Origin: Bifidobacterium bohemicum DSM 22767
GTDB taxonomy: Bacteria > Actinomycetota > Actinomycetes > Actinomycetales > Bifidobacteriaceae
Length of the DNA stretch: 64,000 nt
Assembly (NCBI RefSeq): GCF_000741525.1
Contig: NZ_JGYP01000001.1
Coordinates: 62,001 to 126,000, forward strand
Direction of reading: 5' to 3'
Every line of letters begins with the position of its first letter. The stretch's first letter is position 1. The position numbers and the translations under genes are program-made. The notes under the pieces were generated by a model. The model did no database searches and was not told the DNA's origin. It worked only from the letters and a program-made list of their open reading frames with translations. Shown here piece by piece: positions 40,507 to 56,395 of the stretch.

Positions 40507-43254
40507 TCAGTCAACACCTGAATAAGCCACAATATCACGATTTACTGCGACCGCAGCCTGGTGGGCGATATTGCCCAGGCTTGGATCGGTGTCTTCGTAG
40601 TATTCGGAGGCCGCTGCAATCTGACGAAGAATGTCGGCCAGCCTTTTTGCGTTACGAACAAAATCACCGCCGGTCAGCTCGGTTCCCATGAGAATCGAAG
40701 ACAGACTTCTTCCATTGGCCCAGTCATGCATAACATCGACCAGCCCGAAATTCAGCGGTTCCATAGGTTCCAAACCAGCATCATCGCACATTGCTGAAAC
40801 GCGGCCGAACACATGCCTTAATGTCGCGCATGCCTGCGCTACCTGGCCATCGGCTCCGCCGGGATACCGTCGTGGTTCGTTGCCGCTGCCCCTCCTGGAC
40901 TGGTAGACCAGTGAGGAAAGTACCGCGGCAAGCTCCGGTGCATCAAGTCCGGACAGTACGCCATTTTCAATGGCTTCCGCCAGAACGAGATCGTATTCGC
41001 TATAAAGATGTCTGAGCAGCTGACCACGCTTGGTCAAAAGATAGTCCTGACCCTCCATTTGCCGTTTTTGAAGTGGTTGCTTGTTTGACCGACGCGAATC
41101 ACTTGCAGGCTCGTTCGGATCAAGGTATCCCAACAGCGTAAGTATGGCGCAAATCCGGTCGAACTGGCGTGCGACGGAGCCGGTGCGAGAATCGTAACGT
41201 TCTTCGGTGCGTGTCAGTTCCTTGCGTTCCCTCAACCAACGATTGCCCCATTTCAGGTGTGCATCGAGGTCCGGGCATGATCGGCATGGATGATCGGCTT
41301 CGGCTTGCTTCAGATAGGCGATGCGGGAGTCAAGCTCACGATATGCCTGCCTGCGATCGTCCTCGTCTGAAAATTGACGACGCTTGAGTTTGCGGCGCCC
41401 GTCGCGCTGCAAATCGGACAGCTCGCGACGTATGGTCATGAACTCTTTGAAATCGCCCATCGAACAACGGAAAGCATGCTCATAGTTGACAATGGAATGC
41501 TGCAGCAGGCTCATACGCGATTCAAGGCTTGAAGCCGAAGCATTCGCCTCCCACTGAGCAAACGAATGGTCCAAGGTATCGTGGGCCTTGTCATAGCTAC
41601 TGCTGTTGAGGAGGTTGACTGCCATATTGAATGTCGGTTTGAAACTCGAATGTATCGGATATACGCGTTTGCTTGACAGTGAAGCGGCCGTGGTCGGCAC
41701 GAACCCACGGTGATCGACGACCACCGCGTGACCCAGGCTGTCGATGCCACGGCGACCCGCTCTGCCCGTCAGCTGGGTGAACTCCCCCGGCGTCAAAGCG
41801 ACATGATCGACACCATTGAATTTCTCAAGCTTTTCGACCACGACGCACCTGGCCGGCATGTTGATCCCCAGAGCCAACGTTTCGGTGGCGAACACCATTT
41901 TTACCAGTCCTTCATCGAACAAACGTTCGACAATCTGACGGAAAAGAGCCACCATTCCCGCATGATGCGGCGCAAACCCCTCCTCCAGAGCAAAACGGAA
42001 TCGCGCAAAATCAAGGGCTTTGAGATCCTCTTTGGGAAGCTGACCTTCGACCATCTCATCGACGATGCGTCGGATACGTATGACCTCATCGTCCGTGGTG
42101 AGTTCCAGACCGGCGTCAAGACATTGCTGCACGGCTTCGTCGCAACCGTTACGAGAAAAGATGAAGTATATTCCAGGAAGCATACCCAGGAAATCAAGCT
42201 CATCAACCACGGCCGAACGTCGTGGGGCGCGTCTTTGCGGGTGGTGGCGCGACATGGTCTGCGCGTGGCTCTTTCCCGTGCCGCGACGACGGCGACCTCG
42301 TCCGGCCGACTGCCGGTCGTCGCTGCGCGCTCGAGGATCATTACGGGCGGCCAACCTGTCGAGTTGGTCAATTCTGTCAAGTAGCCTCGTGTTGAGCACG
42401 GCCGTCTGTACATCATGCTTGTCGCGCTGGTACAGATCAAATAGTTCGGGCTCATGCTCGGCGTCCCGTTGCACCATGACATGCTGTTCCAACGGTACTG
42501 GTCGATGCTCCGAAACGACGAGCTTGGTCGGCCCGCGCACCGATCGGATCCACGAACAGAAGTCCTCCACGTTGGAAACCGTAGCTGAAAGAGCGACGAT
42601 TTTTATGGACTTGGGCAAGTGGATGATCACTTCTTCCCAAACGGGCCCGCGGAACTGATCTGCCAGATAATGTACCTCATCAAGAATCACGTACCGCAAG
42701 GCACGCAGCGTCTCGGAGTTCTCATACAACATATTGCGCAGGACTTCAGTAGTCATCACCACGATGTTGGCCTCTGAGTTGATGGAGGTGTCTCCCGTCA
42801 GAAGTCCCACATTGTCCGCACCATAAGCCTCGCACAGATCATGGTATTTCTGGTTGCTCAACGCCTTGATCGGCGTGGTGTAGAAGGCTTTCACGTTATG
42901 TTCCCGAGCCAGATACATCGCGAAATCTGCGATGACGGTCTTGCCTGCGCCAGTAGGCGCTGCCACGAGCACGTTCTGACCATTTTCAAGTGCCCGGTTT
43001 GCTTCCAATTGAAACGGATCAAGCTCGAAAGGCAGCGATCGTGCGAATTGCGCGACAAGCGTGTCGTCGTAAGCCTGACGACTGCGGAAGGCCGCATAGC
43101 GTTGCGCCGGCGAGAGGCCGGCACTTTCACCGGCGACCATCGATAAATCCTCGTCCCGATGGTTGGAAAACGCTTTGTTGCCTATACGGTCATGAATAAG
43201 GTCACGTTCGTGCTGAGTGGAACCGTGACGGCGATGATGGGAATGCTTGGTCAT
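40507..43254 (-). CDS. helY: Ski2/Mtr4-like DEVH-box RNA helicase HelY
   Basis: A 915-residue superfamily 2 helicase. Motif I is VAAPTGAGKTV, motif Ia TTPIKALSNQKY, motif II LDEVHYL (DEVH), motif III ALSATVSN, and motif VI QLTGRAGRRG. Motif IV/V blocks include FATETLALGINMPARCVV. The long C-terminal half matches the actinobacterial HelY group (DSHCT-like end). Its likely role is RNA turnover. Codons are open to 43323, but ATG 43254 overlaps the upstream stop in an ATGA arrangement and is preferred. An Arg-rich insertion around residues 300-345 (RGRRRRGTGKSHA) looks disordered. Downstream of pafBC, as in mycobacteria. Confidence 0.93.
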   Translation of the reverse strand: MTKHSHHRRHGSTQHERDLIHDRIGNKAFSNHRDEDLSMVAGESAGLSPAQRYAAFRSRQAYDDTLVAQFARSLPFELDPFQLEANRALENGQNVLVAAPTGAGKTVIADFAMYLAREHNVKAFYTTPIKALSNQKYHDLCEAYGADNVGLLTGDTSINSEANIVVMTTEVLRNMLYENSETLRALRYVILDEVHYLADQFRGPVWEEVIIHLPKSIKIVALSATVSNVEDFCSWIRSVRGPTKLVVSEHRPVPLEQHVMVQRDAEHEPELFDLYQRDKHDVQTAVLNTRLLDRIDQLDRLAARNDPRARSDDRQSAGRGRRRRGTGKSHAQTMSRHHPQRRAPRRSAVVDELDFLGMLPGIYFIFSRNGCDEAVQQCLDAGLELTTDDEVIRIRRIVDEMVEGQLPKEDLKALDFARFRFALEEGFAPHHAGMVALFRQIVERLFDEGLVKMVFATETLALGINMPARCVVVEKLEKFNGVDHVALTPGEFTQLTGRAGRRGIDSLGHAVVVDHRGFVPTTAASLSSKRVYPIHSSFKPTFNMAVNLLNSSSYDKAHDTLDHSFAQWEANASASSLESRMSLLQHSIVNYEHAFRCSMGDFKEFMTIRRELSDLQRDGRRKLKRRQFSDEDDRRQAYRELDSRIAYLKQAEADHPCRSCPDLDAHLKWGNRWLRERKELTRTEERYDSRTGSVARQFDRICAILTLLGYLDPNEPASDSRRSNKQPLQKRQMEGQDYLLTKRGQLLRHLYSEYDLVLAEAIENGVLSGLDAPELAAVLSSLVYQSRRGSGNEPRRYPGGADGQVAQACATLRHVFGRVSAMCDDAGLEPMEPLNFGLVDVMHDWANGRSLSSILMGTELTGGDFVRNAKRLADILRQIAAASEYYEDTDPSLGNIAHQAAVAVNRDIVAYSGVD

Positions 43255-43610
43255 CGAATCGAAGTCTTGCTTTCTTCGGCGAGGTCTGTGGCTGGAATCG
43301 GTTGGGATTGCCAACGGTTCCAAGTATCCGCATGACGATTCTGGTTAGCCTGTTTACGTCGGATGACCGCTTCGTGTTTTTTGCTGTAGCGCGAAGCGGA
43401 AACCCGGATCGGTTCGGTAAAGGCTGGCCTGAACTCGGTGCGGTCAGGTAAACACAGCTGTTGCATCTGTTCGAGATACGGCGATGCTTTCCCCATCGAT
43501 CCGGAAATCTGTTGAGCCAGGTCCGAACCGCGTCTGACCACGTAGACGACTGCCAGTATGAAAACGGCCAACGCCAATATGACCAGAATAAGCCACGTCC
43601 ACCAACGCAT
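43251..43610 (-). CDS. small single-helix membrane protein at the tatA/tatC position
   Basis: A 119-residue protein with one N-terminal hydrophobic helix (WWTWLILVILALAVFILAVVYVV), then an amphipathic stretch and a long basic, hydrophilic tail. It lies between pafBC and helY, with 10 bases to the former and a four-base overlap with the latter. In mycobacteria this spot is occupied by tatA and tatC. The N-terminus is loosely TatA-like in layout (one helix then an amphipathic segment), but I see no TatA motif such as FG-x-x-K/R-L. Treat as a conserved-context protein of unknown function. Confidence 0.6.
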   Translation of the reverse strand: MRWWTWLILVILALAVFILAVVYVVRRGSDLAQQISGSMGKASPYLEQMQQLCLPDRTEFRPAFTEPIRVSASRYSKKHEAVIRRKQANQNRHADTWNRWQSQPIPATDLAEESKTSIR

Positions 43611-43620
43611 TATGGCCTCC

Positions 43621-45525
43621 CTATTCGGTCTCTAGACTCAGTTCGCGCTGTGCCCTGGCCACGATCATGGAACGTAGAGTGTCTGGCGCCACAGCCACGA
43701 TGTGACGGGCGTGGGCGATGGCGAAAGCGACGAACCACGAATCGGATGAAACAGTCAGATACACCTTCTCGCCTTGTCCGCAGGGCTCGACGGTCGCTCC
43801 TTGAATGCGCTTGATGAACGGCAGTCCCTTTTCATCAGTGACGAACACAGCTGGAGTGCCGTTGTCGAAACTCCACTTACGGAGTTCGGCTACCGGCACA
43901 TCCGGAATCTCCAACCTTCCCAAGGGCTTGACCAACGTCGCCTTTTCGATGCGTGAAAGCCGCAACACCTGCCAGATGCGAGGCAGCCCATTGGCCTTGT
44001 TGATGGTCGTGTCCTTGGAAACGAACCGTTTTTCATCCTCGGGCGCCACCGCATCGACATCCGTCCAGACCGCTACGTAATACTTTCCTTCATCTGCGAA
44101 AATCTTGGATGGAGCCACAAGCTTACGGCGCGTACGACCGGTTCCGTCGGTGTATTCCATGTCGAGCAACGATTCGGTGCTGATGGCGCGTTTGACCATA
44201 TCGAAGCTGTTCGGCTCCACCTCATAGCCGGTCAGACTCAGCCAAGGGGTCTCCCCTGGTTTGACATGCTGCCGTAGGCGCATATAGAGATCCTCGGCCT
44301 GTTCTCGTTGTTCGGCCGGCAACAATGAGGAGTGCGCAAGATAACTGACCGAAGCGGTCAACATACTCAAATATTGTTGTGAAATACCTGCCAGACGCTC
44401 AAGTCCGAGCGAATTGGTGGCCGACACGATGCCCTCGGCATCCAACAGCGACCAATCAATGTCAAAGAACTGGCTTCCGGCCATCTCACCATCATCCGAA
44501 ACGGTCGTCAACGTGTTGATGTCTTTACGGATGACCGCGATTGACTTCTTCTTTTCTTCCTCGGTCTGCGGTTCTCCGATAAAACGCTCGGCCAACTCTC
44601 CAAGCGAATACTCCTCGCCTAGATGAGCCGACAAAAATAGCATAAGTCGCAATCGTCGGTCCACTTCGCTGCCGGTCTGGAAGGATTGCGAATGTTTGGC
44701 ATGAGACTTGGCGTCTTCCGGGTCGACACCCTCCATGTTGGTCTTGCTGATGGAACGGGCCACGACCTTTCGAGCGCCTTTGCCGGATGTCTCGTCCGCA
44801 AGCACGAATTCAAGAGCCGCATTAAGCCTGCGGTTCCAGGCGTCCACGGCCTCCTGGGGAGACACGATGAAGGCTCCGGGATGTTCGAGCACAAACATTG
44901 CCAGATCGTCGGAATCGCTGTATGCGACGTTCATGTGTTCACCGTCGACATCCACCGTTGCCGCGAAATGTCGCGAATCGATGACTTTGACGAATGAATC
45001 GGGAATCGGCTGCGTTCCAAGTCCCGGCGCTATGGAATCAAGGCCAAGACCAGGGGTCGGGGTCTGCGGCACACGCGGTGCCGTGCGGGATGCATGCTGC
45101 TCCTCGTGCTTTGACGAGGAGGATGAAATGGACATGGAGCGGGCAAGATAATTGGCTGCCGCAAGTACCGGCATATCCTCAGGCAAAAACCTCAGACGCA
45201 CTCTCGGTTCGTCTCCAAGTTGCAAACGGTAGGAGGCGAAATCCTGCCCTTCCGACTTGGATGAATATTCGGGCTGTCGCGATTCGATGGCTATGCCCAT
45301 GGCCGCGAGCTTGGCGCGATCCCTCTGAAATTGCTTGGCGAAAGCTGCCTTCGCCGCCTGATCGGCCAATTCTCCGTACGAATCGGCATACGCCTTGACC
45401 CGCTGCGCAATCTGCCGGGAAGTCAGCCATTGGGGGAACGCGGACGAAAGCACAGCCAAGACATCCAGTTCGTGCTTGCCCCACTTGTCGGAGAATCGCC
45501 GCCTCCCGTTGCTTCCTTCTGCCAT
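43621..45525 (-). CDS. pafBC: fused PafB-PafC WYL-domain transcription regulator
   Basis: A 634-residue protein joining two HTH-WYL units that are separate genes (pafB, pafC) in mycobacteria. The first half has an N-terminal winged helix (DKWGKHELDVLAVLSSAFPQWLTSRQIAQRV, residues 12-45) and a region QLGDEPRVRLRFLPEDMPVLAAANYLA. The second half has RRLRLMLFLSAHLGEEYSLGELAERF and a WYL domain with MEYTDGTGRTRRKLVAPSKIFADEGKYYVAVW, containing the Lys-x-Tyr-Tyr stretch. PafBC is the LexA-independent DNA damage activator of actinobacteria, believed to sense a nucleic acid ligand through WYL. ATG 45525 opens the unit that continues into helY. Confidence 0.88.
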   Translation of the reverse strand: MAEGSNGRRRFSDKWGKHELDVLAVLSSAFPQWLTSRQIAQRVKAYADSYGELADQAAKAAFAKQFQRDRAKLAAMGIAIESRQPEYSSKSEGQDFASYRLQLGDEPRVRLRFLPEDMPVLAAANYLARSMSISSSSSKHEEQHASRTAPRVPQTPTPGLGLDSIAPGLGTQPIPDSFVKVIDSRHFAATVDVDGEHMNVAYSDSDDLAMFVLEHPGAFIVSPQEAVDAWNRRLNAALEFVLADETSGKGARKVVARSISKTNMEGVDPEDAKSHAKHSQSFQTGSEVDRRLRLMLFLSAHLGEEYSLGELAERFIGEPQTEEEKKKSIAVIRKDINTLTTVSDDGEMAGSQFFDIDWSLLDAEGIVSATNSLGLERLAGISQQYLSMLTASVSYLAHSSLLPAEQREQAEDLYMRLRQHVKPGETPWLSLTGYEVEPNSFDMVKRAISTESLLDMEYTDGTGRTRRKLVAPSKIFADEGKYYVAVWTDVDAVAPEDEKRFVSKDTTINKANGLPRIWQVLRLSRIEKATLVKPLGRLEIPDVPVAELRKWSFDNGTPAVFVTDEKGLPFIKRIQGATVEPCGQGEKVYLTVSSDSWFVAFAIAHARHIVAVAPDTLRSMIVARAQRELSLETE

Positions 45526-45677
45526 TAGTCCTCACGTATCATTACCATTGCATTGCATATCTTGGGTGTACGCATACGCACACTTCTTCTATAATAGTGC
45601 TTTTCTTCGGCGAATTGCTGATTTTTGCAAATTTCATTCCTTTTATCTGTGTAAAACGCCATATTCGGCAGTGAATC

Positions 45678-47105
45678 TCAGATCCATTCGTCCGGTTCAA
45701 TGCCCTGCGGCCCGACGAATTCGCCGTTCGGCACATAGCTGGGTCGACCGGTATCCTCCAGAACCGCATCACCGTAAAACACGACATCTCGTCCGAAGGT
45801 CCAGTCGCCTTGTATCGTCACCGAATTGGCGGCCGCCAGCGACGGCAATGAATACGGGAACCGTTCATCAAAGTCGTTCACGTTTTTGTAATATCGAGGA
45901 TCGAGGCTGATGGCCGGGAAGATGTAGTTGCCGTCCTCGAGCTCGTACGAATCCGTCAGATGGAAACGATCGGAACGCATGATGAACAGGTCATCCGTGG
46001 TCTTGACCGGCAGGAACCTCATACGGTCGACCTTCACGCAAATCGCACCTTCGAACAACCCAATCGCGGCGCCCATCGCAGTCTCGAGCTGAACGACCTT
46101 CGGGCTTGTCGAATCCGTGGGATCAACCGTTTTGTAGTTACGGATGACGGGCAACGGCAGCAGACCTTCATACTCGTCAAGCTTCGCTTTGAGCGCATCG
46201 ATACGCACCCAGATGCTGTTGGTATTGAAATACGGGTGCCGCTCGATATCCTGAGCCGCGGAGTCATCCTTCGGGTCAACCTGTGTCATCTCGCGCAGAA
46301 TGAGGCGTCCGGTAGCTTTGTCACGCACGAAATGCCCGCCCTTTCGGTCCGCATATGTGCGTTGGGCGACCTCTACCATAAACGGCGCGCCGGTGTTCTC
46401 GAAATATTGCGCCAAGGTGCGCGACGGCCGTGCCCCGAGATTGTCGGAATTCGAAATGAACAGATACTTGAATCCAAGTTGTTGCAATACGTCAAGCAGG
46501 CCGGATTCGTAAATCGTGGAATAAATGTCACCGTGACCTGGCGGGCACCATTCCAGTCCGGGTTTGGACGGAAACTCGACGGGCAGACCTGTGGACAGAT
46601 CGATCTTAGGCTCCTGATGCTGGATGATTTCAAGTGGCACATCGCTCTGACGGAATTTACGGTTCCTCCTGATTGCAGCCATCGTATCCTCGGAGGTGCG
46701 GAACGAGTTCATGAACGTCAGAGGCAGAGGGACGCTCAAACGCTCTCGCGTCGTGAGGACCTGGCCCAGGATGACGTCAAGGAACCGCATGTTTTTGGCT
46801 TTGTGACGACGAACCGGCAACAAGGATTTGGCCTTGTCAAGCCCCATGGATGTGCCCAAGCCTCCGTTGAGTTTCAGGAAGGCCGTCCGGCTGAAGGCTC
46901 CCACCGCCTTGTCGTGGTCAATGGTCTGATAGACGTCATGGAAACTGGGTACGTTCGTCAACGGTTCAACGTCGGTCTCGCGAATCCAGGCGTTGGCCTC
47001 CTGATTCCTCCATGCCTCGTAAAGCTTCTCGAACTGGGCAATGGAGGTCTGGCTCATGTGTTGCTCGCGCATTTTCTGTGCCGAAATCTGGAATTTCTTG
47101 TCCAC
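45678..47105 (-). CDS. ugpA: UTP-glucose-1-phosphate uridylyltransferase (eukaryote-like UGP type)
   Basis: A 475-residue enzyme that makes UDP-glucose from UTP and glucose-1-P. It belongs to the UGP2/UDPGP family rather than bacterial GalU: AFLKLNGGLGTSMGLDKAKSLLPVR is the nucleotide-binding signature, followed by PLTFMNSFRTSED, EWCPPGHGDIYSTIYESGLLD, YLFISNSDNLGA and VRIDALKAKL. Bifidobacteria use this enzyme in galactose and lacto-N-biose use through the Leloir-like pathway. Start is a GTG at 47105 with AGGAGAGG upstream; the next Met is 13 residues in. A good promoter lies about 130 bases upstream. Confidence 0.93.
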   Translation of the reverse strand: MDKKFQISAQKMREQHMSQTSIAQFEKLYEAWRNQEANAWIRETDVEPLTNVPSFHDVYQTIDHDKAVGAFSRTAFLKLNGGLGTSMGLDKAKSLLPVRRHKAKNMRFLDVILGQVLTTRERLSVPLPLTFMNSFRTSEDTMAAIRRNRKFRQSDVPLEIIQHQEPKIDLSTGLPVEFPSKPGLEWCPPGHGDIYSTIYESGLLDVLQQLGFKYLFISNSDNLGARPSRTLAQYFENTGAPFMVEVAQRTYADRKGGHFVRDKATGRLILREMTQVDPKDDSAAQDIERHPYFNTNSIWVRIDALKAKLDEYEGLLPLPVIRNYKTVDPTDSTSPKVVQLETAMGAAIGLFEGAICVKVDRMRFLPVKTTDDLFIMRSDRFHLTDSYELEDGNYIFPAISLDPRYYKNVNDFDERFPYSLPSLAAANSVTIQGDWTFGRDVVFYGDAVLEDTGRPSYVPNGEFVGPQGIEPDEWI

Positions 47106-47231
47106 CTTCGCACCTCTCCTTGTTTTCGGTCTTCACGTTGTTTGCGTTGGTCGTAGAGGCTGGACCCGTAGCATGAACGTGATCATACCGACGCTTCAAG
47201 TCCAGGTCTGCCTTAACGCATCTAAGCAAAC

Positions 47232-47260
47232 ATCATACGTGTTCATTTCAAGAATCTCAA
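47232..47260 (-). promoter_or_regulatory. promoter of the UGP gene
   Basis: On the minus strand, TTGAGA (47260-47255) and TATGAT (47237-47232) are separated by exactly 17 bases, a good housekeeping promoter. It implies a leader of about 120 bases. The rest of the roughly 310-base gap up to 47420 shows nothing else clear. Confidence 0.6.
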
Positions 47261-47419
47261 AGCGACAGAACCGTGAAAGACCGAGAAAGCTTTATGGCAG
47301 CGTCCTCAATCGGCCCGACAACGGCGACGATGAACCAGTTATGAAACCGACGGAAACAATGGAATAGGACCACGGTCCAACCATGTTATCCTATGGATCT
47401 TCAAGAACCGCCCGAGTCG

Positions 47420-49627
47420 TCAGTGGCCGTTATCCGTTTTGGCTGTGACATGCGCGAAGTCCGGCACTTTGTTCCATTTGACCGTGTATCCTACGCCGTG
47501 AGCGCAGAAAACCGAATCCGGCGTGTTTTCCATATCCGTTTCGGGATCGTAGGCCATCCGGTCGATGACCGTCTGCGCATCATGGCAGGGTCTGTACCCG
47601 TCAAAAACGCAATTGAGCTGTCCTCTCCCGCGGGCGTAGGCATTGACCTCGTTTGAATAGTCGCGCATCTGCGACACCGGTGCCCGGCCTTCTATTACCG
47701 CATATTCGCCGTCATACATCGGAGTGTCGAACGTGCCGCTCATGCGCTGGATATCCGATATCGCACGACCCATCGTTTCTTGAGGCACTTCAAGACGAAA
47801 ACGATACCAGGGTTCAAGCAACTGGCAGGCGCCGCGCCGCTTGAGCTCCATCAGTCCTTGTCGCACGGCTCGGTAGGTGGCTTCGCGGAAGTCGCCTCCT
47901 TCGGTGTGTTTGTCATGTCCGCGCCCCGCAATCAGCGAAATCCTCATGTCGGTGATAGGCGAGGCGGTCAGCACCCCAAGGTGTTCCTTTTCGGCCAAAT
48001 GCGACAGGATCGCACGCTGCCAGTTACGATCGAGATCGTCAAGGCTGCATTTCGACCGAAAGCGCATACCACTGCCCGGCTGGCCGGGTTCAAGAAGAAG
48101 ATGGACTTCGGCATAGTGACGCAACGGTTCGAAGTGACCGATCCCCTCGCCACTCGCGCTGATGGTCTCGCGATAGAGAATGCCGCCGGATCCGCAATGC
48201 ACATCCATGCCGAAACGGTCGTGCAGCATCTGCACGATGACCTCCTGTTGCACTGCCCCCATCAGCTGGATCTGGATCTGTCCCAAGCGCGGCACCCAAC
48301 GTACCCCCAGGTTTGGGTCCTCATCTTCCAACGTACGCAAGGCCGTGAAAATATGGTGAAGTTCCGGGGTGACCTCAGCCGCCTGCACCTCAGGAGCCAA
48401 GTGCCCCGCCCCATCCTTGATCGGCGCCGTACGGTCATGCGAGCCGGAAGGCAGGTGCGCGTCTCGAGTCCCGACGTGATCTGCAGCACTGTCGCGAGCC
48501 GTTTCAACGCTGTTTACGGCTTCAACTGACTGAAGTCGATTGTCGTCGTCGGCTCCCGGCCAGACGGTATACGTCAGAACCGGTTGAAGTACCGCCGCGT
48601 CAGCGTCATCTTCAAATCCGAGTCCCTCACCCGGGAAAGTACGGGTCAATCCGGTCACGGCGCACACTTCACCCGCCTCGACAGTGTCGATCAACTCGTA
48701 TTTTGAGGCTGAATACCGGCGAATCTGGTCGATTTTTTCGCTCCAAGGCGTATCCGCGCCGGTTCGCGCATCATAAGTCCCCACCGGACTCGAGCCCTCA
48801 TCGGGGTCTTCAGGTAAACGTATGTTGCTCAAAGAGTCCTTGACCGCAAGTGACCCGCCCGTCACCTTGAGCCATGTCAGGCGGTTGCCTTGATTGTCAT
48901 GTGAGATCTTGTATACTCGCGCGCCGAAATCCTGCGGATATTGCCGTGCACTGGTGAAGCGTTCAAGTCCGGCCAGGAATTCGTCGACGCCCTTAAGTTT
49001 CAAGGCGGAACCCGAAAAACACGGGAAAAGCCGTCGCTCATTGACCAGGCGTCGTAGCGTCTGATCCTGAATGCGGCCGTCGTCCAGCAGCTGATTGACG
49101 GCGATGCCGGTGTCGTCGAGCAAAGCCACCTGTTCGTCACGGTCGAGTCCATCGATATTGTCTGCATCAACGCAGCCTTCAGAAAAACGGTGACGGATCA
49201 AAGAAAGCAAGGACTCTTTGTCGGCCCCGGTAACATCCATTTTGTTGATGAAGATGAACGTAGGAACGTTGTAGCGTTCGAGGATGCGCCACAACGTCTC
49301 GGTATACCCTTGTAGACCGTCATTGGCTCCGACCACCAGAATGGCGTAGTCGATCACGCGCAGCGTTCGTTCCATTTCCGCCGAAAAGTCGACATGACCC
49401 GGCGTGTCGAGTATAGTGAAAGCGACATTATCGGTCTGAAGAATCGCCTGCTTGGAAAAGATGGTGATGCCACGACGCTTTTCCATCGCGTCCGTGTCGA
49501 GAAAAGCGTCGCCGTGATCCACCCGACCGAGTTTGCGTATCTCGCCGGAACGATACAGCAACGCCTCACACAGGGTGGTCTTTCCTGCATCCACATGTGC
49601 GGCAATGCCGACCACCGCTCGTCTCAT
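47420..49627 (-). CDS. TetM/EF-G-like translational GTPase
   Basis: A 735-residue GTPase of the TetM/TetW/TetO family. G1 is AAHVDAGKTT (residues 8-17), switch II is DTPGHVDF, and G4 is NKMD. EF-G-like domains follow, and LLEPWYRFRLEVPQETMGRAISDIQRM matches domain V of TetM. It is about 95 residues longer than TetM: there is a low-complexity acidic insert (about residues 370-410), and the end has NTPDSVFCAHGVGYTVKWNKV, which classical Tet proteins lack but many Firmicute and bifidobacterial homologues carry. It is likely a chromosomal ribosome factor rather than an acquired resistance gene. No mobile element flanks it. The ATG at 49627 has a GGGGGAG site. Confidence 0.85.
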   Translation of the reverse strand: MRRAVVGIAAHVDAGKTTLCEALLYRSGEIRKLGRVDHGDAFLDTDAMEKRRGITIFSKQAILQTDNVAFTILDTPGHVDFSAEMERTLRVIDYAILVVGANDGLQGYTETLWRILERYNVPTFIFINKMDVTGADKESLLSLIRHRFSEGCVDADNIDGLDRDEQVALLDDTGIAVNQLLDDGRIQDQTLRRLVNERRLFPCFSGSALKLKGVDEFLAGLERFTSARQYPQDFGARVYKISHDNQGNRLTWLKVTGGSLAVKDSLSNIRLPEDPDEGSSPVGTYDARTGADTPWSEKIDQIRRYSASKYELIDTVEAGEVCAVTGLTRTFPGEGLGFEDDADAAVLQPVLTYTVWPGADDDNRLQSVEAVNSVETARDSAADHVGTRDAHLPSGSHDRTAPIKDGAGHLAPEVQAAEVTPELHHIFTALRTLEDEDPNLGVRWVPRLGQIQIQLMGAVQQEVIVQMLHDRFGMDVHCGSGGILYRETISASGEGIGHFEPLRHYAEVHLLLEPGQPGSGMRFRSKCSLDDLDRNWQRAILSHLAEKEHLGVLTASPITDMRISLIAGRGHDKHTEGGDFREATYRAVRQGLMELKRRGACQLLEPWYRFRLEVPQETMGRAISDIQRMSGTFDTPMYDGEYAVIEGRAPVSQMRDYSNEVNAYARGRGQLNCVFDGYRPCHDAQTVIDRMAYDPETDMENTPDSVFCAHGVGYTVKWNKVPDFAHVTAKTDNGH

Positions 49628-49763
49628 GGCTTACTCCCCCTATCGGTATTGAACGCTTCATAGCATACCGCAGTCTTCAACACATCGGGGAGCAATCCGC
49701 TCGAATGCCGGCAACGGGCCGAACTGATTGTCGCATTCATGCGCCGGCTCTGAAAGCAAGCAA

Positions 49764-49806: not shown

Positions 49807-50274
49807 CTATCGTCTAAGTTCGTCGATCTTATCGTGCGCCTGCCGGCCGATTCGCGCGGCTTCTTCTTCGTCGCCGGTTTTAACGGCCTGCCAGTAACGA
49901 ATCTTAAGACCCACGTAGTCGGCACGAATGTCGAGTACGTGGCGCTCGCGCTCTATCCGCTGTTGCTGTTCACGCAGCAGTCCGACCTCATGATCGGCTC
50001 CATCGCCGCCTTCGTCGCGATGTTCCATGTAGTCGCGCATCTGATTCAAGGGCATGCCCGTGGCACTGAGGCACGCGGTGATCGACAGGGCCTGCAGGTC
50101 ATCGTCGCTATAGCACCGGTGGCCGGAACTTGGATCCCGGGCCACGGGTGCTATGATGCCGATTTGCTCATAGTAACGCAATGTGCTTTCAGGTAGCCCG
50201 CAATAAAGCGAGGCCTCGCGGATGGAGTACCAGCGCGGGGACTGAGTTTCGGAGGTGCCACGTGAATCGGTCAT
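49807..50274 (-). CDS. MerR-family regulator of the AdhR/NmlR thiol-sensing type
   Basis: A 155-residue regulator. The winged helix is WYSIREASLYCGLPESTLRYYEQIGIIAPVARDPSSGHRCYSDDDL (residues 15-60), followed by a dimerisation helix. It contains ITACLSATGMPL with Cys68 at the place of the conserved cysteine of AdhR/NmlR proteins (IKCLRxTGMPI pattern), which sense aldehydes, methylglyoxal or nitrosative/thiol stress. Two more cysteines are Cys25 and Cys54. The ATG is eight bases from a MerR-type promoter that carries the same operator as the promoters of the neighbouring reductase genes, so it very likely controls itself and them. Start at 50274 gives the full HTH. Confidence 0.88.
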   Translation of the reverse strand: MTDSRGTSETQSPRWYSIREASLYCGLPESTLRYYEQIGIIAPVARDPSSGHRCYSDDDLQALSITACLSATGMPLNQMRDYMEHRDEGGDGADHEVGLLREQQQRIERERHVLDIRADYVGLKIRYWQAVKTGDEEEAARIGRQAHDKIDELRR

Positions 50275-50281
50275 ATCCGTT

Positions 50282-50311
50282 ATGGTACGGACTTGAAGTA
50301 CTTGAAGTCAA
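50282..50311 (-). promoter_or_regulatory. MerR-type promoter of merR (operator site 1)
   Basis: On the minus strand -35 TTGACT (50311-50306) and -10 TACCAT (50287-50282) are 18 bases apart, longer than the usual 17, as in MerR-activated promoters. The spacer carries the dyad GACTTCAAG-TA-CTTCAAGTC (8 of 9 positions match as an inverted repeat). The transcript would start within a few bases of the ATG. Confidence 0.7.
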
Positions 50312-50339
50312 CTCCATATCCACCGAAGCACGGCCGGGC

Positions 50340-50684
50340 TTAGTCTTCCGGGACATCCGGTTTCGCGTCGTCGCCCCAGATTTCCTTGGCGCGATTGAAT
50401 GCCGACCAGGCCTTAGGCCACCCCACATAGAAGGACAAGTGGGTGATTTCGGCCGCAATCTCCTCCTTCGTGATGCCGTTGCCCTTGCCGATGTTCAGAT
50501 GGGCGTCGAGTTGCTCGGTGGCGCCCATGGCAATGATGGCGGCAATCGTGATCATGGAGCGATCATGCGGTGTAATGGTCTCGTCGTTCCACACCTCGCC
50601 GAAGAGGACGTCATCGTTGTAGTGCGCGAAATCAGGGGCGAACTGCCCCAGCTGCTCGCGTCCTGCGGTCTGTTTGATAGTCAT
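50340..50684 (-). CDS. carboxymuconolactone decarboxylase-family protein
   Basis: A 114-residue all-helical protein of the CMD/AhpD fold. Landmarks: FAHYNDDVLFGEVWNDETITPHDRSMITIAAIIAMGATEQLDAHLNIGKGNGITKEEIAAEITHLSFYVGWPKAWSAFNRAKEIW. The usual E-x-x-x-H and GW-P residues are present. There is no Cys-x-x-Cys, so it is not an AhpD-type peroxidase; it belongs to the decarboxylase-like branch seen with reductases and cupins in stress clusters. It starts 43 bases after the cupin gene and likely shares its transcript. The true substrate is unknown. Confidence 0.85.
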   Translation of the reverse strand: MTIKQTAGREQLGQFAPDFAHYNDDVLFGEVWNDETITPHDRSMITIAAIIAMGATEQLDAHLNIGKGNGITKEEIAAEITHLSFYVGWPKAWSAFNRAKEIWGDDAKPDVPED

Positions 50685-50727
50685 GCTTTTCCCTTATCCG
50701 TCGTGCGTTTCGGCTCGTACTCGAGTT

Positions 50728-51138
50728 TCAGACCAACTCGCTGTAAGTCTTACTGTCAACCGGTTCTAGCCATTCGTTGCTTGAACCATTCTGAGGCACC
50801 ATGACGGCCAGATGCGAGAACGGCTCGTCGGGACTGGCACCGTGCCAATGCTTGGTCTCGGGTGGGATGACCGCCACGTCGCCTGGGCGCAACTGACGAA
50901 CCGGCTCACCTTCGATCTGGTAATAGCCGCGCCCACCCACCGCAATCAGAACCTGTGTGGCCTTGTGGTGGATGTGCCAATGATTGGTGCAGCCGGCTTC
51001 AAACGTCACGTTGCTGACGGCCACGGTATCCGTGCCGACCAATGGCGCCAAATAGCTCTGACCCTCAAAATATCGGGCGTAGGCATCGTTTGGCTTCCCT
51101 AGCGGGAACGGACTGGGGTTGGTGAATGTGGTGGACAT
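50728..51138 (-). CDS. single-domain cupin
   Basis: About 136 residues forming one cupin barrel. Motif 1 is CTNHWHIHHKATQVLIAVGGRGYYQIEG (G-x5-H-x-H-x-x-x-x-E-like, with Gln for Glu), and motif 2 is PGDVAVIPPETKHWHGASP. The histidines for metal binding are present. Such cupins are often found fused or next to carboxymuconolactone decarboxylase proteins and act on small quinone- or lactone-like molecules; the reaction here is unknown. The frame opens at 51198 but ATG 51138 has GAAAAGAGAGA just upstream. It lies between an aldo-keto reductase and the CMD protein, all on the same strand. Confidence 0.87.
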   Translation of the reverse strand: MSTTFTNPSPFPLGKPNDAYARYFEGQSYLAPLVGTDTVAVSNVTFEAGCTNHWHIHHKATQVLIAVGGRGYYQIEGEPVRQLRPGDVAVIPPETKHWHGASPDEPFSHLAVMVPQNGSSNEWLEPVDSKTYSELV

Positions 51139-51241
51139 CAATCTCTCTTTTCTTGACGATAGGGACACATGGTTGCGCTTTTCCCGACAACCGAGCATAA
51201 AAGGCGAACCACGTGAGGACAGGTTTTAGCATGAAACGTAT

Positions 51242-52105
51242 TCAGCGCCCGCTGAATACGGGGAACGCGCTTGACCGACCGTAGTCGATGACTTTGGGTA
51301 TTTGGTGCAGCGTGAGCATATCCGCCTCGCTGATGACGAAATCGACATCCGCGTTCGCCCTGATGTGTTCCTCGGAAGAGGCTTTCGGCAACGGCAATGT
51401 CCCGATTTGCAGGCAGTACCGGATCATCAGCTGTGCCGCTGAGACGCCGTACCGCTCCGCCATGCCGGTAATGGTCGGGTCCCCCGCCATCTCACCGTGG
51501 GCGATGGGTGAATACGCCTCGACCAGAATGTCGTGTTTCTGCGCATAGTCAAGCAGATCGAACCTCGTGTTGCCAATGTGGGTGAGTAATTGGTTGACTA
51601 CCGGTTTGACGGTGCAGTGGTCGAGAATGTTGTCAAGGTCGACATCCTCGAAGTTGGAGACGCCGATTGCACGGACCTTTCCGTCTTCAACGGCCTCCTC
51701 CATTGCCTTCCAAGCCTCGAGGTTGCCTTCCAAGCAGTGGTCGCCCTCATGGAAATGGCTCCAAGGCTCGGGAGCGTGAATCAGCAACAGGTCGATATAA
51801 CCGATGTCGAGTCTGGTCAACGAAGCCTCTATCGATTCTTTGGCGGATTGGTAGTCCTTATGCTCGGCCCGAACCTTGGTGCTCACGAAAACGTCCTCAC
51901 GCTTGAGCCCGGAGTCGCGCACGCCTTGGCCGACCCCTCGCTCGTTCTCGTAGGCCTGGGCGGTGTCGATGTAGCGATACCCGCATGCGATCGCCGTTTC
52001 GACCGCCTGCCCCGCCTTGTCGTCATCGATCAGCCATGTACCGAAGCCGAGCTTCGGAATCGTGACGCCGTTGCTCAACGTATATGCCTCATCTAGTACC
52101 GTCAT
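51242..52105 (-). CDS. aldo-keto reductase (AKR5-like)
   Basis: A 287-residue NADPH-dependent TIM-barrel reductase. The catalytic tetrad is visible: Asp and Tyr in YRYIDTAQAYENERGVGQGV, Lys in VFVSTKVRAEH and His in IDLLLIHAPEP. GVSNFEDVDLDNIL and the cofactor-binding LPKASSEEHIRAN follow. It resembles 2,5-diketo-D-gluconate/methylglyoxal reductases, which reduce small aldehydes and dicarbonyls. Its promoter (52152-52181) has the MerR-type spacing and operator shared with merR. ATG 52105 follows GAAAGGTG. The cupin and CMD genes lie about 100 bases downstream and may be co-transcribed. Confidence 0.93.
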   Translation of the reverse strand: MTVLDEAYTLSNGVTIPKLGFGTWLIDDDKAGQAVETAIACGYRYIDTAQAYENERGVGQGVRDSGLKREDVFVSTKVRAEHKDYQSAKESIEASLTRLDIGYIDLLLIHAPEPWSHFHEGDHCLEGNLEAWKAMEEAVEDGKVRAIGVSNFEDVDLDNILDHCTVKPVVNQLLTHIGNTRFDLLDYAQKHDILVEAYSPIAHGEMAGDPTITGMAERYGVSAAQLMIRYCLQIGTLPLPKASSEEHIRANADVDFVISEADMLTLHQIPKVIDYGRSSAFPVFSGR

Positions 52106-52151
52106 TGTCGCACCTTTCGTATCATGCCGATTCTACCGGCGGTCAGTATCA

Positions 52152-52181
52152 ACTATAAAAACCTCAAGCACTCGAAGTCAA
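52152..52181 (-). promoter_or_regulatory. MerR-type promoter of the aldo-keto reductase (operator site 2)
   Basis: On the minus strand -35 TTGACT (52181-52176) and -10 TATAGT (52157-52152) have an 18-base spacer carrying GACTTCGAGTGCTTGAGG, an imperfect dyad of the same type as sites 1 and 3. The -10 is the strongest of the three. Confidence 0.75.
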
Positions 52182-52382
52182 TCGGGCTCACCGGACGACC
52201 GCCAAGGCGACTCCTACGGCACCGCTTGCAATCACCGGCGTGATACACGATTCCGATTCGCCACGCCGACCCTGCGATGAGCCCATGTGTCCGCCCGAGG
52301 AGACGAACCTTTACAAGGTCTGCCGATTCCGCATCCACAATCGCCCCAACCCATCAGTCGGGGCAAAGGCGGCATCCGGGAC

Positions 52383-53426
52383 CTACGCTTCCGCGACAAC
52401 GATCAGCGATTTGATCGCCTCGCGTTCGTCCATCGCCTCATATGCCTGCTGGATGTGATCCAGGTCGAACCGTTTGGTGAACACGCGTCCCGGTTCGATC
52501 CGGCCATCGAGCACGGCGTCGAGCAACACGTTCTTATCGTAGGTCGTCACCGAAGCAATGCCTCCGCGCAAGCCTATATTGCGCCAGAACAGTTCGGTGG
52601 TGTTCAGCTCGCTGTTCTGCGGCACGCCCACACGCCCAACGATGGATCCCGGACGACCGACCTTCAAGGCGGTGATCGTGGATTGCTCGGTTCCCACGCA
52701 CTCAAGTACCGAGTCGGCTCCGGACCCTCCGGTGAGCTCCATGACACGTTCGACGGCCTGATCACCCCGTTCGGCAACGATATCGGTAGCTCCAAATTCG
52801 CACGCCATGCGCTGGCGATCGTCATGTCGGCTCATGGCGATGATCCGTTCCGCGCCGAGTGATCTCGCGGAGATGATTCCGCACAGCCCCACGGCCCCGT
52901 CGCCCATGACCACGGTGGTGTCCCCGGTCTTCACTTCCGCGCTTACGGCGGCGTGATAGCCCGTGGCCATCACATCGGAGAGGGCAAGCAGGCTGTTGAG
53001 CCGTTCATCGGAATAATCCGAAGGTTTGCCGGGAATCCTGACCAAAGACCAGTCCGCGCTTGCAAAACGAAGGTATTCGGCTTGGTACCCGGCATTGCCG
53101 CCCGGTTCCTGATTCATGCAGTTGCCGTCGAAACCGGCACGGCATGCAGCACATCTGCCGCAACCGTGGGTGAACGGAACGACGACAAAATCGCCTGGCC
53201 GCACAGCCGTGACCTCCGGGCCGACCTCCTGCACCACGCCAATCGCCTCATGACCCGCCAGCGACCCATGTTCACGCTTCGAAATCCCGCGATACCACCA
53301 CAGATCCGATCCGCAGACGCACGCACGCAGGATACGGATAATCGCGTCGGTCGGTTTTTCAATCACCGGCATCGGAACTTCCGTAGTCTGCATTCGCCCG
53401 GGCTCTACAAACATGGCCGCTTTCAT
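52383..53426 (-). CDS. zinc-dependent alcohol dehydrogenase (MDR family)
   Basis: About 347 residues of the medium-chain dehydrogenase family. The catalytic zinc residues are in RACVCGSDLWWYRG and GHEAIGVV. The structural zinc loop is CGRCAACRAGFDGNC with four Cys. The Rossmann motif is VVMGDGAVGLCG, and YHAAVSAEV and VLECVGTE follow. Family members reduce or oxidise alcohols and aldehydes, with some acting on glutathione-independent formaldehyde or quinones. The frame opens at 53471 but ATG 53426 has GGAAGGAAAA right before it. It is divergent from a second aldo-keto reductase, with the MerR-type site 3 between them serving both. Confidence 0.92.
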   Translation of the reverse strand: MKAAMFVEPGRMQTTEVPMPVIEKPTDAIIRILRACVCGSDLWWYRGISKREHGSLAGHEAIGVVQEVGPEVTAVRPGDFVVVPFTHGCGRCAACRAGFDGNCMNQEPGGNAGYQAEYLRFASADWSLVRIPGKPSDYSDERLNSLLALSDVMATGYHAAVSAEVKTGDTTVVMGDGAVGLCGIISARSLGAERIIAMSRHDDRQRMACEFGATDIVAERGDQAVERVMELTGGSGADSVLECVGTEQSTITALKVGRPGSIVGRVGVPQNSELNTTELFWRNIGLRGGIASVTTYDKNVLLDAVLDGRIEPGRVFTKRFDLDHIQQAYEAMDEREAIKSLIVVAEA

Positions 53427-53475
53427 TCGTTTTCCTTCCGTTGACTCCACGGCGATACGCGCCGTGACCATCTAC

Positions 53476-53511
53476 AGCGTATTGACTTCAAGCGCTCGAA
53501 GTCAATACGGT
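53476..53511. promoter_or_regulatory. bidirectional MerR-type promoter (operator site 3)
   Basis: A perfect 10-bp inverted repeat (TATTGACTTC 53480-53489, GAAGTCAATA 53498-53507) around AAGCGCTC. It contains TTGACT as -35 on both strands. Each is followed after 18 bases by a -10: TACGGT (53506-53511) toward the plus-strand reductase and TACGCT (53481-53476) toward the dehydrogenase. One MerR dimer could switch both genes. Confidence 0.75.
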
Positions 53512-53579
53512 GGTCAACGGGGTCGCATCAAGACGATGCGCGCCGGCCACAAAGCAATGGCAGAAAGAAAGGCAACGAC

Positions 53580-54599
53580 ATGGAGCATTTCGAATTAGGG
53601 CAATCTGGGGTGATTATTCCGCCGATGTTCCTCGGAGGCATGTCCTTCGGCAAGCCCGACCCGGATCAGCACCTGTGGACCATTGACCAGAAGGCCACGG
53701 AACAGGTCATCAGCCGTGCCCTTGAACTGGGCGTCAACGCCATCGACACAGCGAACTGCTACGCACGAGGCACCAGCGAGGAATACATCGGACAAGCACT
53801 GAAAGACATCGGCGTGCCAAGAGACAAGGTCGTGCTGGCCAGCAAAGTGTATTTTAATGACGGTCACAGCTCGGCCGCAGCGATAAAGCGGGAAATTGAA
53901 GGAAGCCTCAGAAGGCTCGGCACCGACTATCTGGATATCTACATTTTGCACCGCTTCGATTATGATACGCCCGTCGAGGAGACCATGCAGGCCCTTGACG
54001 ACCTTGTGCGCGAAGGAAAGGTCCGCGCGCTCGGAGCCAGCGAGATGTATGGATACCAGTACCACGACCTCCAGGCGGCCGCCGAAAGCAACGGCTGGAC
54101 GAAGCTGTCGACCTTGCAATGCCATTACAACCTGCTCTATCGCGAGGATGAACGGGAATTGATTCCCGTGGCTCGGCAGTACGGGGCCGTGCCCACACCA
54201 TACAGTCCGCTCGCGTCCGGCCATCTTGCCCGAAAGACCTGGGACTCGGACTCCAAGCGGTTCCAGACCGACAAGGTCATCCGCAACAAATACGATTCGG
54301 CAAGGGCTCAGGACCAGCCGATCATCGACAGGGTGGCGCAGGTGGCCGAGAAATACCATGAGCCGATGGCGCAGATCGCCCTCGCCTGGCAGTGGGTTCA
54401 CGGGCCTTCCGCACCGATCGTGGGTTGCAGCTCCCCCGAACGCGTCGAACAGGCCGTCGCAGCCATGAATGTCCATCTTGAACAGGAGGACATCGACTAC
54501 ATGGAGGAAGCGTACACGGCACATGAACTGGTCGGACCGCTGGCGCGCCCGGGAGAGAAGGCGCTCGCAGGTACCACCGTGCCTCCAAAAGCCGAGTGA
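53580..54599 (+). CDS. aldo-keto reductase (YhdN/AKR-like, second)
   Basis: A 339-residue NADPH-dependent reductase of a different subgroup from the one at 51.2 kb. It starts MEHFELGQSGVIIPPMFLGGMSFG. The tetrad is Asp and Tyr in GVNAIDTANCYARGTSEEYIGQAL, Lys in VVLASKVYFND and His in IYILHRFDYDTP. GASEMYGYQ replaces the usual GVSN loop, and APIVGCSSPERVEQAVAAM forms the cofactor site near the end. It is expressed divergently from the alcohol dehydrogenase through the shared operator. Probable substrates are small aldehydes or dicarbonyls. A strong hairpin after the stop separates it from the convergent gene. Confidence 0.92.
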   Translation: MEHFELGQSGVIIPPMFLGGMSFGKPDPDQHLWTIDQKATEQVISRALELGVNAIDTANCYARGTSEEYIGQALKDIGVPRDKVVLASKVYFNDGHSSAAAIKREIEGSLRRLGTDYLDIYILHRFDYDTPVEETMQALDDLVREGKVRALGASEMYGYQYHDLQAAAESNGWTKLSTLQCHYNLLYREDERELIPVARQYGAVPTPYSPLASGHLARKTWDSDSKRFQTDKVIRNKYDSARAQDQPIIDRVAQVAEKYHEPMAQIALAWQWVHGPSAPIVGCSSPERVEQAVAAMNVHLEQEDIDYMEEAYTAHELVGPLARPGEKALAGTTVPPKAE

Positions 54600-54963: not shown

Positions 54964-55098
54964 GTCGATGTTCCTTTCAGGTCGTTCTCGGTCAGCCCGA
55001 CACCTGTCGGTATGACCGGTGTACACCGTACCGTAGGGAAAAAGCTGCAACAACCCGACGATTCAGCCAGGAATTGTCGGGTTGAGGACGGGAAGACC

Positions 55099-55622
55099 AT
55101 GCGTACCAACGAAAATCGACGGAAACCGGAATCCGAAAACAAAATCGAACAGGCGTTCAGCGAGCTGGTGCAGGAGCATGACATCGACCGCATCTCCGTG
55201 ACGATGATCTGCAAACGCGCAAACGTCAACCGCAGCACTTTCTATGCCGGCTACCTCGACATTCGTGACCTGATGGACAACATCGAGGAAAAGATGACCG
55301 CGATTTCCAAACCATCTACGCCGATGAACTGACCCGTAAATACAATTCGAACGATTTCTCGAAGCTCTTTTGCAACATCAGAGACCATCAGTCGTTTTAT
55401 CGGGCGTACTTCAGGCTTGGGCTTGATCTGAAGTTCAACCCTCAAGTCAGGGATCGGCGACTTGCCGAAAAATACTACGGTTCAAAGAACATCGAGTACC
55501 ACTCGGCCTTTTTCCGCGCAGGAATCACGGCTATCTTCAGAATGTGGCTGGGCAACGACTGCGACCTGACGCCCGAAGAGCTGTTCGAGGTTCTGAAGGA
55601 TGAATACAAGCCCAAACCGTGA
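55099..55622 (+). pseudogene. TetR-family regulator, frameshifted
   Basis: The N-terminal half (ATG 55099) is a TetR DNA-binding domain: NKIEQAFSELVQEHDIDRISVTMICKRANVNRSTFYAGYLDIRDLMDNIEEKM. The frame is lost at about 55290 and stops at 55330-55332. The C-terminal half continues in another frame: DFQTIYADELTRKYNSNDFSKLFCNIRDH, SFYRAYFRLGL, then AFFRAGITAIFRMWLGNDCDLTPEELFEVL and stop at 55620-55622. A single one- or two-base change restores a normal roughly 175-residue protein, so this is a recent lesion, a sequence error, or a switchable gene. It is divergent from the 87-residue gene. Confidence 0.75.
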
Positions 55623-55867
55623 TGCCACCGCTACGAACGATCTTGTCAAAGCGCCGTACCTAACCGGTACGGCCTCGGCTTTGTGAGTCAACCGCATGTC
55701 CGTTTGGCTCAACTGCTGCGCAACGGGGTTCCAGCCATCGGAGGAGGTCACCTGGCTTCGTTTGCCGTTTGATATCCATATTCCTCGTTTTCTGATGCCA
55801 TGCCGACGAGAGGAACTCAACACGCTAGTTCTTGACCGATTGTTCAAATACTGTTAGACTGTCTTTC

Positions 55868-56395
55868 ATGGCAAGACCCAGAAGCTTCGACGAACATGAC
55901 GTTATCGAGCAATGCAGCGCCGTTTTCTGCACGCACGGTTACGAAGCGACCTCCATCGACGACCTGACGGCGGCCACCGGGCTCAAACGGGGAAGCCTGT
56001 ATCAGGCATTCGGCAGCAAGCACGGTCTGTTCGTGGCCGCGCTTGGCCAATCCCTGGAGGAGGAGGAAGCCGCCTGCAAACCCGATTCGGCGTTGTCTGA
56101 CAGCCAATCGAGGATCAAACAGTTCGACGGGCGGCCTGAACGGCTCGCACCAAACGCCGAGGAGCGGCGACCTGCACCGACCTTGAACCGGAGGCATGGT
56201 CGGCCTTCCGTCCAAGACCTCACATTGATCGCGATCGCGTGCCTTGAACTGGCCCCCAATGATCGGAAGGTGCGGGGCATGCTCATCGACTGGGTTTCGA
56301 AGCTGAACACGGAACGGCAATCCACATTACCCGAGGCACTGGGACGGTGTCTGCTCGACCGAAGCCATATTCACGTCGGGCAACCGGACGAATGA
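55868..56395 (+). CDS. TetR-family regulator
   Basis: A 175-residue regulator with an N-terminal HTH: ARPRSFDEHDVIEQCSAVFCTHGYEATSIDDLTAATGLKRGSLYQAFGSKHGLFVAALGQ (residues 2-60). The ligand domain has a low-similarity, Arg/Pro-rich middle (about 85-115) that looks unusual, then LTLIAIACLELAPNDRKVRGMLIDWVSKL, typical of this subgroup. The frame opens at 55832, but ATG 55868 (MARPRSF) matches family starts. The next gene, 40 bases on, is the likely target. The effector is unknown. Confidence 0.82.
   Translation: MARPRSFDEHDVIEQCSAVFCTHGYEATSIDDLTAATGLKRGSLYQAFGSKHGLFVAALGQSLEEEEAACKPDSALSDSQSRIKQFDGRPERLAPNAEERRPAPTLNRRHGRPSVQDLTLIAIACLELAPNDRKVRGMLIDWVSKLNTERQSTLPEALGRCLLDRSHIHVGQPDE

Follow-up and report, generated by a model that had tools for sequence, protein, structure and literature searches.

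Six genes lie together on one 64,000-nucleotide stretch of the Bifidobacterium bohemicum DSM 22767 genome (hereafter the window; C1:62001-126000 of a 2.05-Mb genome in five contigs): they encode a MerR-family regulator (merR), a CMD-family protein, a cupin, two aldo-keto reductases (AKR1 and AKR2) and a zinc-dependent alcohol dehydrogenase (ADH). An earlier reading of this DNA from its letters alone (the sequence-only reading) had described such a cluster, and all six genes were found in place, AKR2 on the plus strand and the other five on the minus strand. The merR gene (49807-50274) encodes a protein of 155 residues with cysteines at positions 25, 54 and 68, which belongs to the MerR family by its Pfam domain (PF13411, MerR_1; 50.4 bits against a cut-off of 21.6). 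The top-scoring of nine NCBIfam models was NmlR (NF041849), an equivalog whose cut-off lies far above the score obtained (175 versus 64.5 bits), and we therefore refer to the protein as AdhR/NmlR-like and not as NmlR.

The CMD-family protein (50340-50684; 114 residues; Pfam CMD, 73.1 bits) contains no cysteine and is therefore not an AhpD-type CxxC peroxidase. The cupin (50728-51138; 136 residues; Cupin_2, 40.5 bits) carries an HxH motif and scores 105.9 bits against the NCBIfam MandnitrLy model, under its cut-off of 140; the listed open reading frame (ORF) begins at 51198, probably too far upstream. AKR1 (51242-52105; 287 residues; Aldo_ket_red, 166.7 bits) is DkgA/DkgB-like, DkgA being its top NCBIfam model at 182 bits versus a cut-off of 425, and the ADH (52383-53426; 347 residues) matches ADH_N and ADH_zinc_N with 70.2 and 72.9 bits. 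For AKR2 (53580-54599; 339 residues; Aldo_ket_red, 229.1 bits) the top NCBIfam model is a YdjG-like methylglyoxal reductase, at 150 bits versus a cut-off of 550.

Four predicted promoters built on three dyads lie in this cluster, at exactly the positions, and with the TTGACT hexamer and 18-base spacer, that the sequence-only reading had given. On the minus strand, the merR promoter (50282-50311) reads TTGACT-18-TACCAT and differs from the consensus TTGACTTCRAGYNCTYGANGTNWNTA at two positions, and the promoter of the AKR1-cupin-CMD run (52152-52181; TTGACT-18-TATAGT) and that of ADH (53476-53505; TTGACT-18-TACGCT) match it without mismatch, as does the plus-strand promoter of AKR2 (53482-53511; TTGACT-18-TACGGT). 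The last two share one dyad (53482-53505), which supplies a -35 element at either end to the divergent ADH and AKR2 genes, as had been proposed; this dyad is indeed a perfect inverted repeat, with arms that by eye extend over 12 bp and not 10 (CGTATTGACTTC and GAAGTCAATACG, flanking 8 bp). The longer alternative ORF of ADH would start at 53471, 4 nt past the -10 element of its promoter.

With up to three mismatches, the consensus, which was derived from these window sites together with other sites of the same genome, matched the window four times, always in the cluster; 100 dinucleotide shuffles averaged 0.00 matches. These controls bear on whether the shared promoters might simply be ordinary strong promoters or coincidences, since TTGACT is close to the sigma-70 consensus and a generic promoter scan gave four matches against a shuffle mean of 1.9. 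However, the combined dyad and promoter never arose in the 100 window shuffles, and the reversed pattern, used as a control, had no match in the genome and a single one in all 112 genus genomes analysed, leaving this explanation of the dyad with a negligible probability, and we rejected it.

Operators across the genome and in relatives

Scanning the whole genome for the dyad, as the sequence-only reading had suggested, identified eight promoters within two mismatches of TTGACTTCRAGYNCTYGANGTNWNTA; at three mismatches there were ten readings, the two additional ones being reverse readings of two of the dyads. Four of the eight lie outside the window: C1:46547 (plus strand), preceding a SnoaL-like gene that is followed by an esterase gene; C1:50516 (minus strand), preceding a DUF3737 gene with a PatB-family C-S lyase gene behind it (TIGR04350, 366.7 bits versus a cut-off of 340); C1:50662 (plus strand), preceding a second zinc ADH (ADH2); and C4:154176 (minus strand), preceding a flavodoxin-fold NAD(P)H oxidoreductase. 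From their spacing we infer that the esterase is co-transcribed with the SnoaL-like gene and the C-S lyase with DUF3737. A self-contained module of six genes, as originally envisaged, is therefore too small, and the one-cluster view was abandoned: the regulon is larger, with four further operator promoters elsewhere in the genome and with targets that in relatives are scattered over several loci.

To relate the operator to the regulator, we compared 112 genomes of the genus, in which a MerR orthologue (E < 1e-28, a threshold chosen after the list had been inspected) was present in 52, with a partial merR match (G011) and a stop-containing one (G058) counted as absent, and an operator (at most two mismatches) in 54. 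Operators occurred in 48 of the 52 MerR-positive genomes versus 6 of the 60 MerR-negative ones, with 54 genomes having neither (kinship ignored), and 150 of 157 operator strand readings fell in MerR-positive genomes. Three of the four genomes with MerR alone have a three-mismatch site at merR; for the regulator-bearing G097, no site at merR was found within five mismatches in 9 kb.

Individual targets followed the same pattern. DUF3737 was located by its Pfam family in 44 genomes, of which 43 were tested (the fragment in G070 was left out), and the 500 bp upstream of it contained a site with at most four mismatches in 27 of 33 MerR-positive versus none of 10 MerR-negative genomes. For the cupin, a site lay within 1.5 kb upstream at 21 of 28 MerR-positive versus none of 15 MerR-negative loci (the latter among the matches listed), a comparison biased in that 23 of the 28 MerR-positive loci had been chosen earlier, mostly since an operator was nearby; loci picked for the cupin alone had a site in 1 of 5. 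Three MerR-positive genomes (G090, G091 and G092) have a three-mismatch site before AKR1-cupin. The proposal that one regulator serves the whole set thus gains support from the comparison in three ways: operator and MerR co-occur, targets lack the operator where MerR is absent, and a site lies in the merR promoter itself.

We also read the genes behind 128 of the 157 genus strand readings, 4 of which had no ORF, leaving 124 sites. Their first downstream genes, chosen automatically and so including errors such as antisense ORFs where GC content is high and MALY calls at sites with DUF3737 in between, matched one of twelve reference regulon proteins in 84 cases; 8 of these are the genome's own, giving 76 of 116 in relatives. 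The 40 unclassified first genes include 8 methyltransferases, 5 MarR genes, 5 flavodoxins and 2 DXS-like genes (one of each Pfam-checked). In two relatives (G024 and G083) merR is divergent from an ADH gene over a single dyad.

The operator extends beyond the genus. Across the family it was detected in 81 of 189 genomes, 27 of them from other genera, compared with two matches to the reversed control; both of the other-genus genomes examined for it (G125 and G131) have a cysteine-bearing MerR orthologue directly downstream, and a third (G114) has two sites, one preceding a CMD gene and the other lying upstream of a cupin gene. Across the order, the pattern alone matched 20 of 297 sampled genomes, and 10 of 273 outside the family, where in nine of the ten (G226, G250, G275, G292, G302, G349, G366, G436 and G453) a cysteine-bearing MerR orthologue lies directly downstream; the site in the tenth, G193, looks like a chance match. 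One of the nine, G292, carries merR, CMD, cupin, flavodoxin, AKR and ADH genes with three operators on a single contig. Among 16 more distant MerR relatives scanned for comparable dyads, only the Luteibacter locus (L046) had one, with its axis 7 bp past the -35 and a 19-bp spacer; none was found at the other 15.

Promoter geometry and the start of merR

The dyad overlaps the -35 hexamer, with its axis 6 bp past that element: at this distance a mean of 7.62 of 9 positions were paired, versus no more than 3.52 at any other distance examined. Among 127 unique sites, a TAnnnT -10 element stood at spacer 18 in 88 and at spacers 17, 19 or 20 in none, and its sixth position was T in 95; the TA of the -10 was part of the search pattern and biases these counts, whereas the sixth T was not. 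Published work is cited here from excerpts of the papers. In the excerpt of one review, MerR promoters typically have spacers of 19-20 bp, against an optimum of 17+/-1 (PMC9909328), and in that of another paper the dyads of metal-type sites are centred 7-8 bp from the -35 (PMC5045206), so that the bifidobacterial promoters are tighter on both counts. The claim of a long spacer consequently holds weakly, 18 bp being under the typical range. This is a departure in the promoter, since the typical arrangement places the dyad within a 19-20 bp spacer; membership of the MerR family rests on the domain. In five of the genomes outside the family (G275, G292, G366, G436 and G453) the best-fitting -10 is shifted outward by 1 bp, so that the spacer becomes 19 bp and the distance from dyad to -35 is unchanged.

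The operator promoter also lies close to merR. Among 55 merR loci, 4 have no operator in reach and 8 are duplicates, leaving 43 distinct promoters, in which the ATG follows the -10 by 7 nt in 35 (the window gene among them), by 6 nt in 4, by 8 nt in 1 and by 42-57 nt in 3. Purine-rich stretches precede the other five cluster genes; merR has no room for one. In leaderless genes, which are common in Actinobacteria, a TANNNT motif stands some 12 bp before the start codon (PMC3160421, from its excerpt), and the merR promoters match this signature. Because the start lies 6-8 nt past the -10 of an operator promoter in 40 of 43 cases, we predict that the merR mRNA is leaderless and autoregulated. This predicted leaderless merR and the 18-bp spacer with its dyad over the -35 go beyond the sequence-only reading.

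A candidate cysteine switch and its alternatives

In an alignment of 51 distinct orthologues (leaving out the partial L044, the non-bifidobacterial L045 and L046, and identical and short sequences), Cys68 was present in all 51, Cys25 in 16 and Cys54 in 1. Cys68 follows the helix-turn-helix in a CLxxTGM-type stretch and occupies the same column as a cysteine of the Haemophilus influenzae NmlR chains, upholding the earlier assignment of an AdhR/NmlR-type cysteine and making it a predicted candidate electrophile sensor. Excerpts of the literature state that Cys54 of the H. influenzae protein and Cys52 of Bacillus subtilis AdhR are required for the response to formaldehyde (PMC4776306), the latter residue being numbered C54 elsewhere (PMC3499171). 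As in AdhR/NmlR systems, one predicted operator stands at the regulator's own and at ADH promoters, in the window genome and in relatives.

What was observed directly is where the sites lie, how many the genome has, that they co-occur with MerR, that the merR promoter carries one and that Cys68 is invariant. From these we consider it probable that the eight predicted promoters with one 18-bp dyad (ACTTCRAGYRCTYGAAGT), the cluster's four included, constitute a single regulon of the cluster MerR, which would sense electrophiles through Cys68 and activate reductases and predicted cleanup enzymes. A MerR dimer would occupy the dyad overlapping the -35 hexamer, such that the unmodified protein would keep promoter output low; by analogy with AdhR and NmlR, alkylation or oxidation of Cys68 would then untwist the 18-bp spacer or release repression. 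At 53482-53505 a single dimer could drive ADH and AKR2 in opposite directions, and merR would feed back on itself through its leaderless mRNA. The enzymes placed under this control (two AKRs, two zinc ADHs, the flavodoxin-fold NAD(P)H oxidoreductase, the CMD, cupin, SnoaL-like and DUF3737 proteins and the PatB-type C-S lyase) may serve to reduce carbonyls and quinones and to degrade electrophile-cysteine conjugates. Two AKRs, two ADHs, a flavin reductase and a C-S lyase among the targets point to a carbonyl or quinone electrophile as the likeliest signal.

Several observations weigh against this interpretation. The genus-wide association of operator and MerR is uncorrected for relatedness and uses a post hoc MerR threshold, and five MerR-negative genomes (G015, G053, G054, G071 and G093) retain an operator before a methyltransferase, ADH2 or AKR1 gene; a sixth operator-bearing genome, G011, has only a partial merR match. 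On the DUF3737 tree (41 rows; G007 and G072 left out) there were about 4 independent contrasts, in which the operator changed the same way in a mean of 1.6, the opposite way in 0 and with no difference in 2.4; four contrasts make significance impossible, and relatedness limits the weight of that comparison. Disappearance of the operators from relatives that retain the genes, which had been named as a possible refutation, cuts both ways: in MerR-negative relatives (0 of 10 DUF3737 genes and, among the matches listed, 0 of 15 cupin loci with an operator) it favours the idea, but a minority of MerR-positive ones also lack a nearby site (6 of 33 for DUF3737 and 7 of 28 for the cupin), as does merR itself at 4 of the 55 loci. 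Finally, the protein does not reach the NmlR cut-off, and an 18-bp spacer lies outside the 19-20 bp of MerR activators, so that activation by distortion is not assured.

This last point leads to the view that the same MerR controls the same regulon as a simple repressor, covering the -35 and spacer and released by modification of Cys68, since a spacer of 18 bp would hardly need untwisting, if at all. The spacer of 18 is the one that fits best (88 of 127 TAnnnT sites, a pattern-biased count) and falls within the published optimum of 17+/-1, and CvkR offers a precedent for a leaderless MerR-family repressor. Yet the five order-level relatives with 19-bp spacers have the spacing of activator-type promoters at an identical dyad-to--35 distance, and the poor -35 elements at merR in many relatives (TGGACT, TAGACT, TTTACT) would suit activation; we judge simple repression less likely than not. 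The nature of the signal is more open to doubt: that a genuine regulon responds to hypochlorite or disulfide stress, to quinones or to an antibiotic-like compound instead of carbonyls falls only somewhat short of an even chance. The flavodoxin-fold oxidoreductase, the flavodoxins and the PatB C-S lyase are as compatible with quinone or thiol stress as with aldehydes, and neither ADH is recognised as a glutathione- (GSH-) or mycothiol-dependent formaldehyde dehydrogenase, both scoring far under the cut-offs of those models. Bifidobacteria are not known to contain glutathione or mycothiol. Against such a signal stand the two AKRs and two zinc ADHs among the targets, and the AdhR regulon (adhA, the CMD gene yraC, and yraA), which responds to methylglyoxal and formaldehyde according to the excerpted report (PMC4776306).

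Could another protein bind the palindrome, with merR merely one more target? In five relatives merR and a MarR gene diverge across this dyad, and a TetR-type gene (55829-56392; TetR_N, 40.5 bits) lies just downstream of the cluster. However, the operator tracks the MerR orthologue across the genus and across families, and MarR genes, at 5 of 124 sites, are too rare to account for it; we regard a MarR- or TetR-type binder as very improbable. Within the genome, no other NmlR-like MerR was found among the PF13411 matches, and the four other proteins with this domain make unconvincing binders: HspR (118.7 bits versus a cut-off of 105), a cytosine methyltransferase and two larger MerR-domain proteins.

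Among the known systems that come closest to the MerR regulon favoured here is that of B. subtilis AdhR (YraB), which likewise combines a MerR protein with one conserved cysteine, a zinc ADH and a CMD protein (PMC4776306, in excerpt). A cupin, DUF3737, a C-S lyase, a flavodoxin-fold reductase and a pair of AKRs set the present system apart; among the genes read there was no protease resembling yraA, although no search aimed at yraA was made. The NmlR-adhC-estD systems of Haemophilus and Neisseria share the cysteine column and the divergence of merR and ADH over one dyad (as in G024 and G083), and EstD is a PF00756-family esterase, the family of the gene behind the SnoaL-like gene here. They differ in that the protein here falls short of the NmlR model, neither ADH is classed as GSH-dependent, and the esterase match is weak (31.6 bits) and comes with a signal-like N-terminus; here, too, the regulon is larger and dispersed, and the spacer measures 18 bp. 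The YqhC- and NemR-type regulons of Escherichia coli control AKR and ADH genes for glyoxal and methylglyoxal, a functional resemblance only, as their regulators belong to other families. With CvkR, a leaderless MerR-type repressor of CAST that has a palindromic operator (PMC9938897, in excerpt), the system has only the leaderless organisation in common, predicted here from sequence; operator and targets differ.

More tentatively, and with appreciable doubt, we suggest that the order harbours an unrecognised branch of cysteine-switch MerR regulators, combining an operator over the -35, a spacer of 18 bp (19 in some relatives), a leaderless self-regulated mRNA, a dispersed defence in which AKR/ADH/flavin enzymes would reduce electrophiles and a PatB C-S lyase would cut cysteine conjugates, and a testable role for CMD, cupin and DUF3737. 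No MerR regulon of such kind in Bifidobacterium was among the matches listed from the open-access literature, and no paper on DUF3737 was found there by name. If true, bifidobacteria would gain a defined electrophile-stress regulon, and a single testable signal would link the C-S lyase with the poorly understood CMD-like, small cupin and DUF3737 proteins. The 18-bp spacer with its dyad-overlapped -35 would also probe the tightest geometry at which MerR can still activate by distorting DNA, a question for which the 18/19-bp spacer pair between families is natural material.

Associated and neighbouring genes

The esterase gene behind the SnoaL-like gene (L010:9292-10215) has a PF00756 score of 31.6 bits and, by eye, a signal-like hydrophobic N-terminus; esterase-like DNA also adjoins AKR1 in G082 and G088 (L124 and L133), which hints that the esterase belongs to the regulon. 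The SnoaL/PatB/DUF3737/ADH2 region as a whole (G000:C1:46765-56607; L010:8766-18608), about 10 kb, is 93% and then 83% identical to G081:C11 (L122), while window positions 38000-49700 show 65-83% identity to G081 in pieces of 0.2-2 kb, which makes it likely that this satellite region is shared through recent horizontal transfer. A second DUF3737 copy (G000:C1:302765-303574), 67% identical to the first, has no operator. The DUF3737 promoter of G103 (L272; TTGACTTCAAGCCGACTTGAAGTTTTATCCT), scored as having no operator in the DUF3737 count, has the same half-sites 4 bp apart and, by eye, a 19-bp spacer, like the Luteibacter locus.

Among the unclassified genes behind operators, a SAM methyltransferase of about 260 residues recurs at eight loci (L150, L160, L164, L170, L172, L176, L180 and L194; one Pfam-checked), with a TATATC-like -10, and its operator persists without MerR in G015, G054 and G071. 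The MarR-like gene divergent to merR over the same dyad (L123, L125, L132, L135 and L139; L132 Pfam-checked) may possibly form a two-regulator node with it, and in G030 and G041 an operator precedes a DXS-like transketolase gene beside merR (L161:4026 and L199:6435; one Pfam-checked).

Next to the cluster in the window, an EF-G-family GTPase (47420-49627, minus strand) has tet_protect as its closest NCBIfam model and, at 376.9 bits versus a cut-off of 775, is therefore not a recognised resistance protein. On the other side, an ORF at 55012-55332 resembles a TetR N-terminus by eye and stops early, and DNA similarity to G086 (68.6%) continues to 55607, so that this TetR-like gene looks interrupted.

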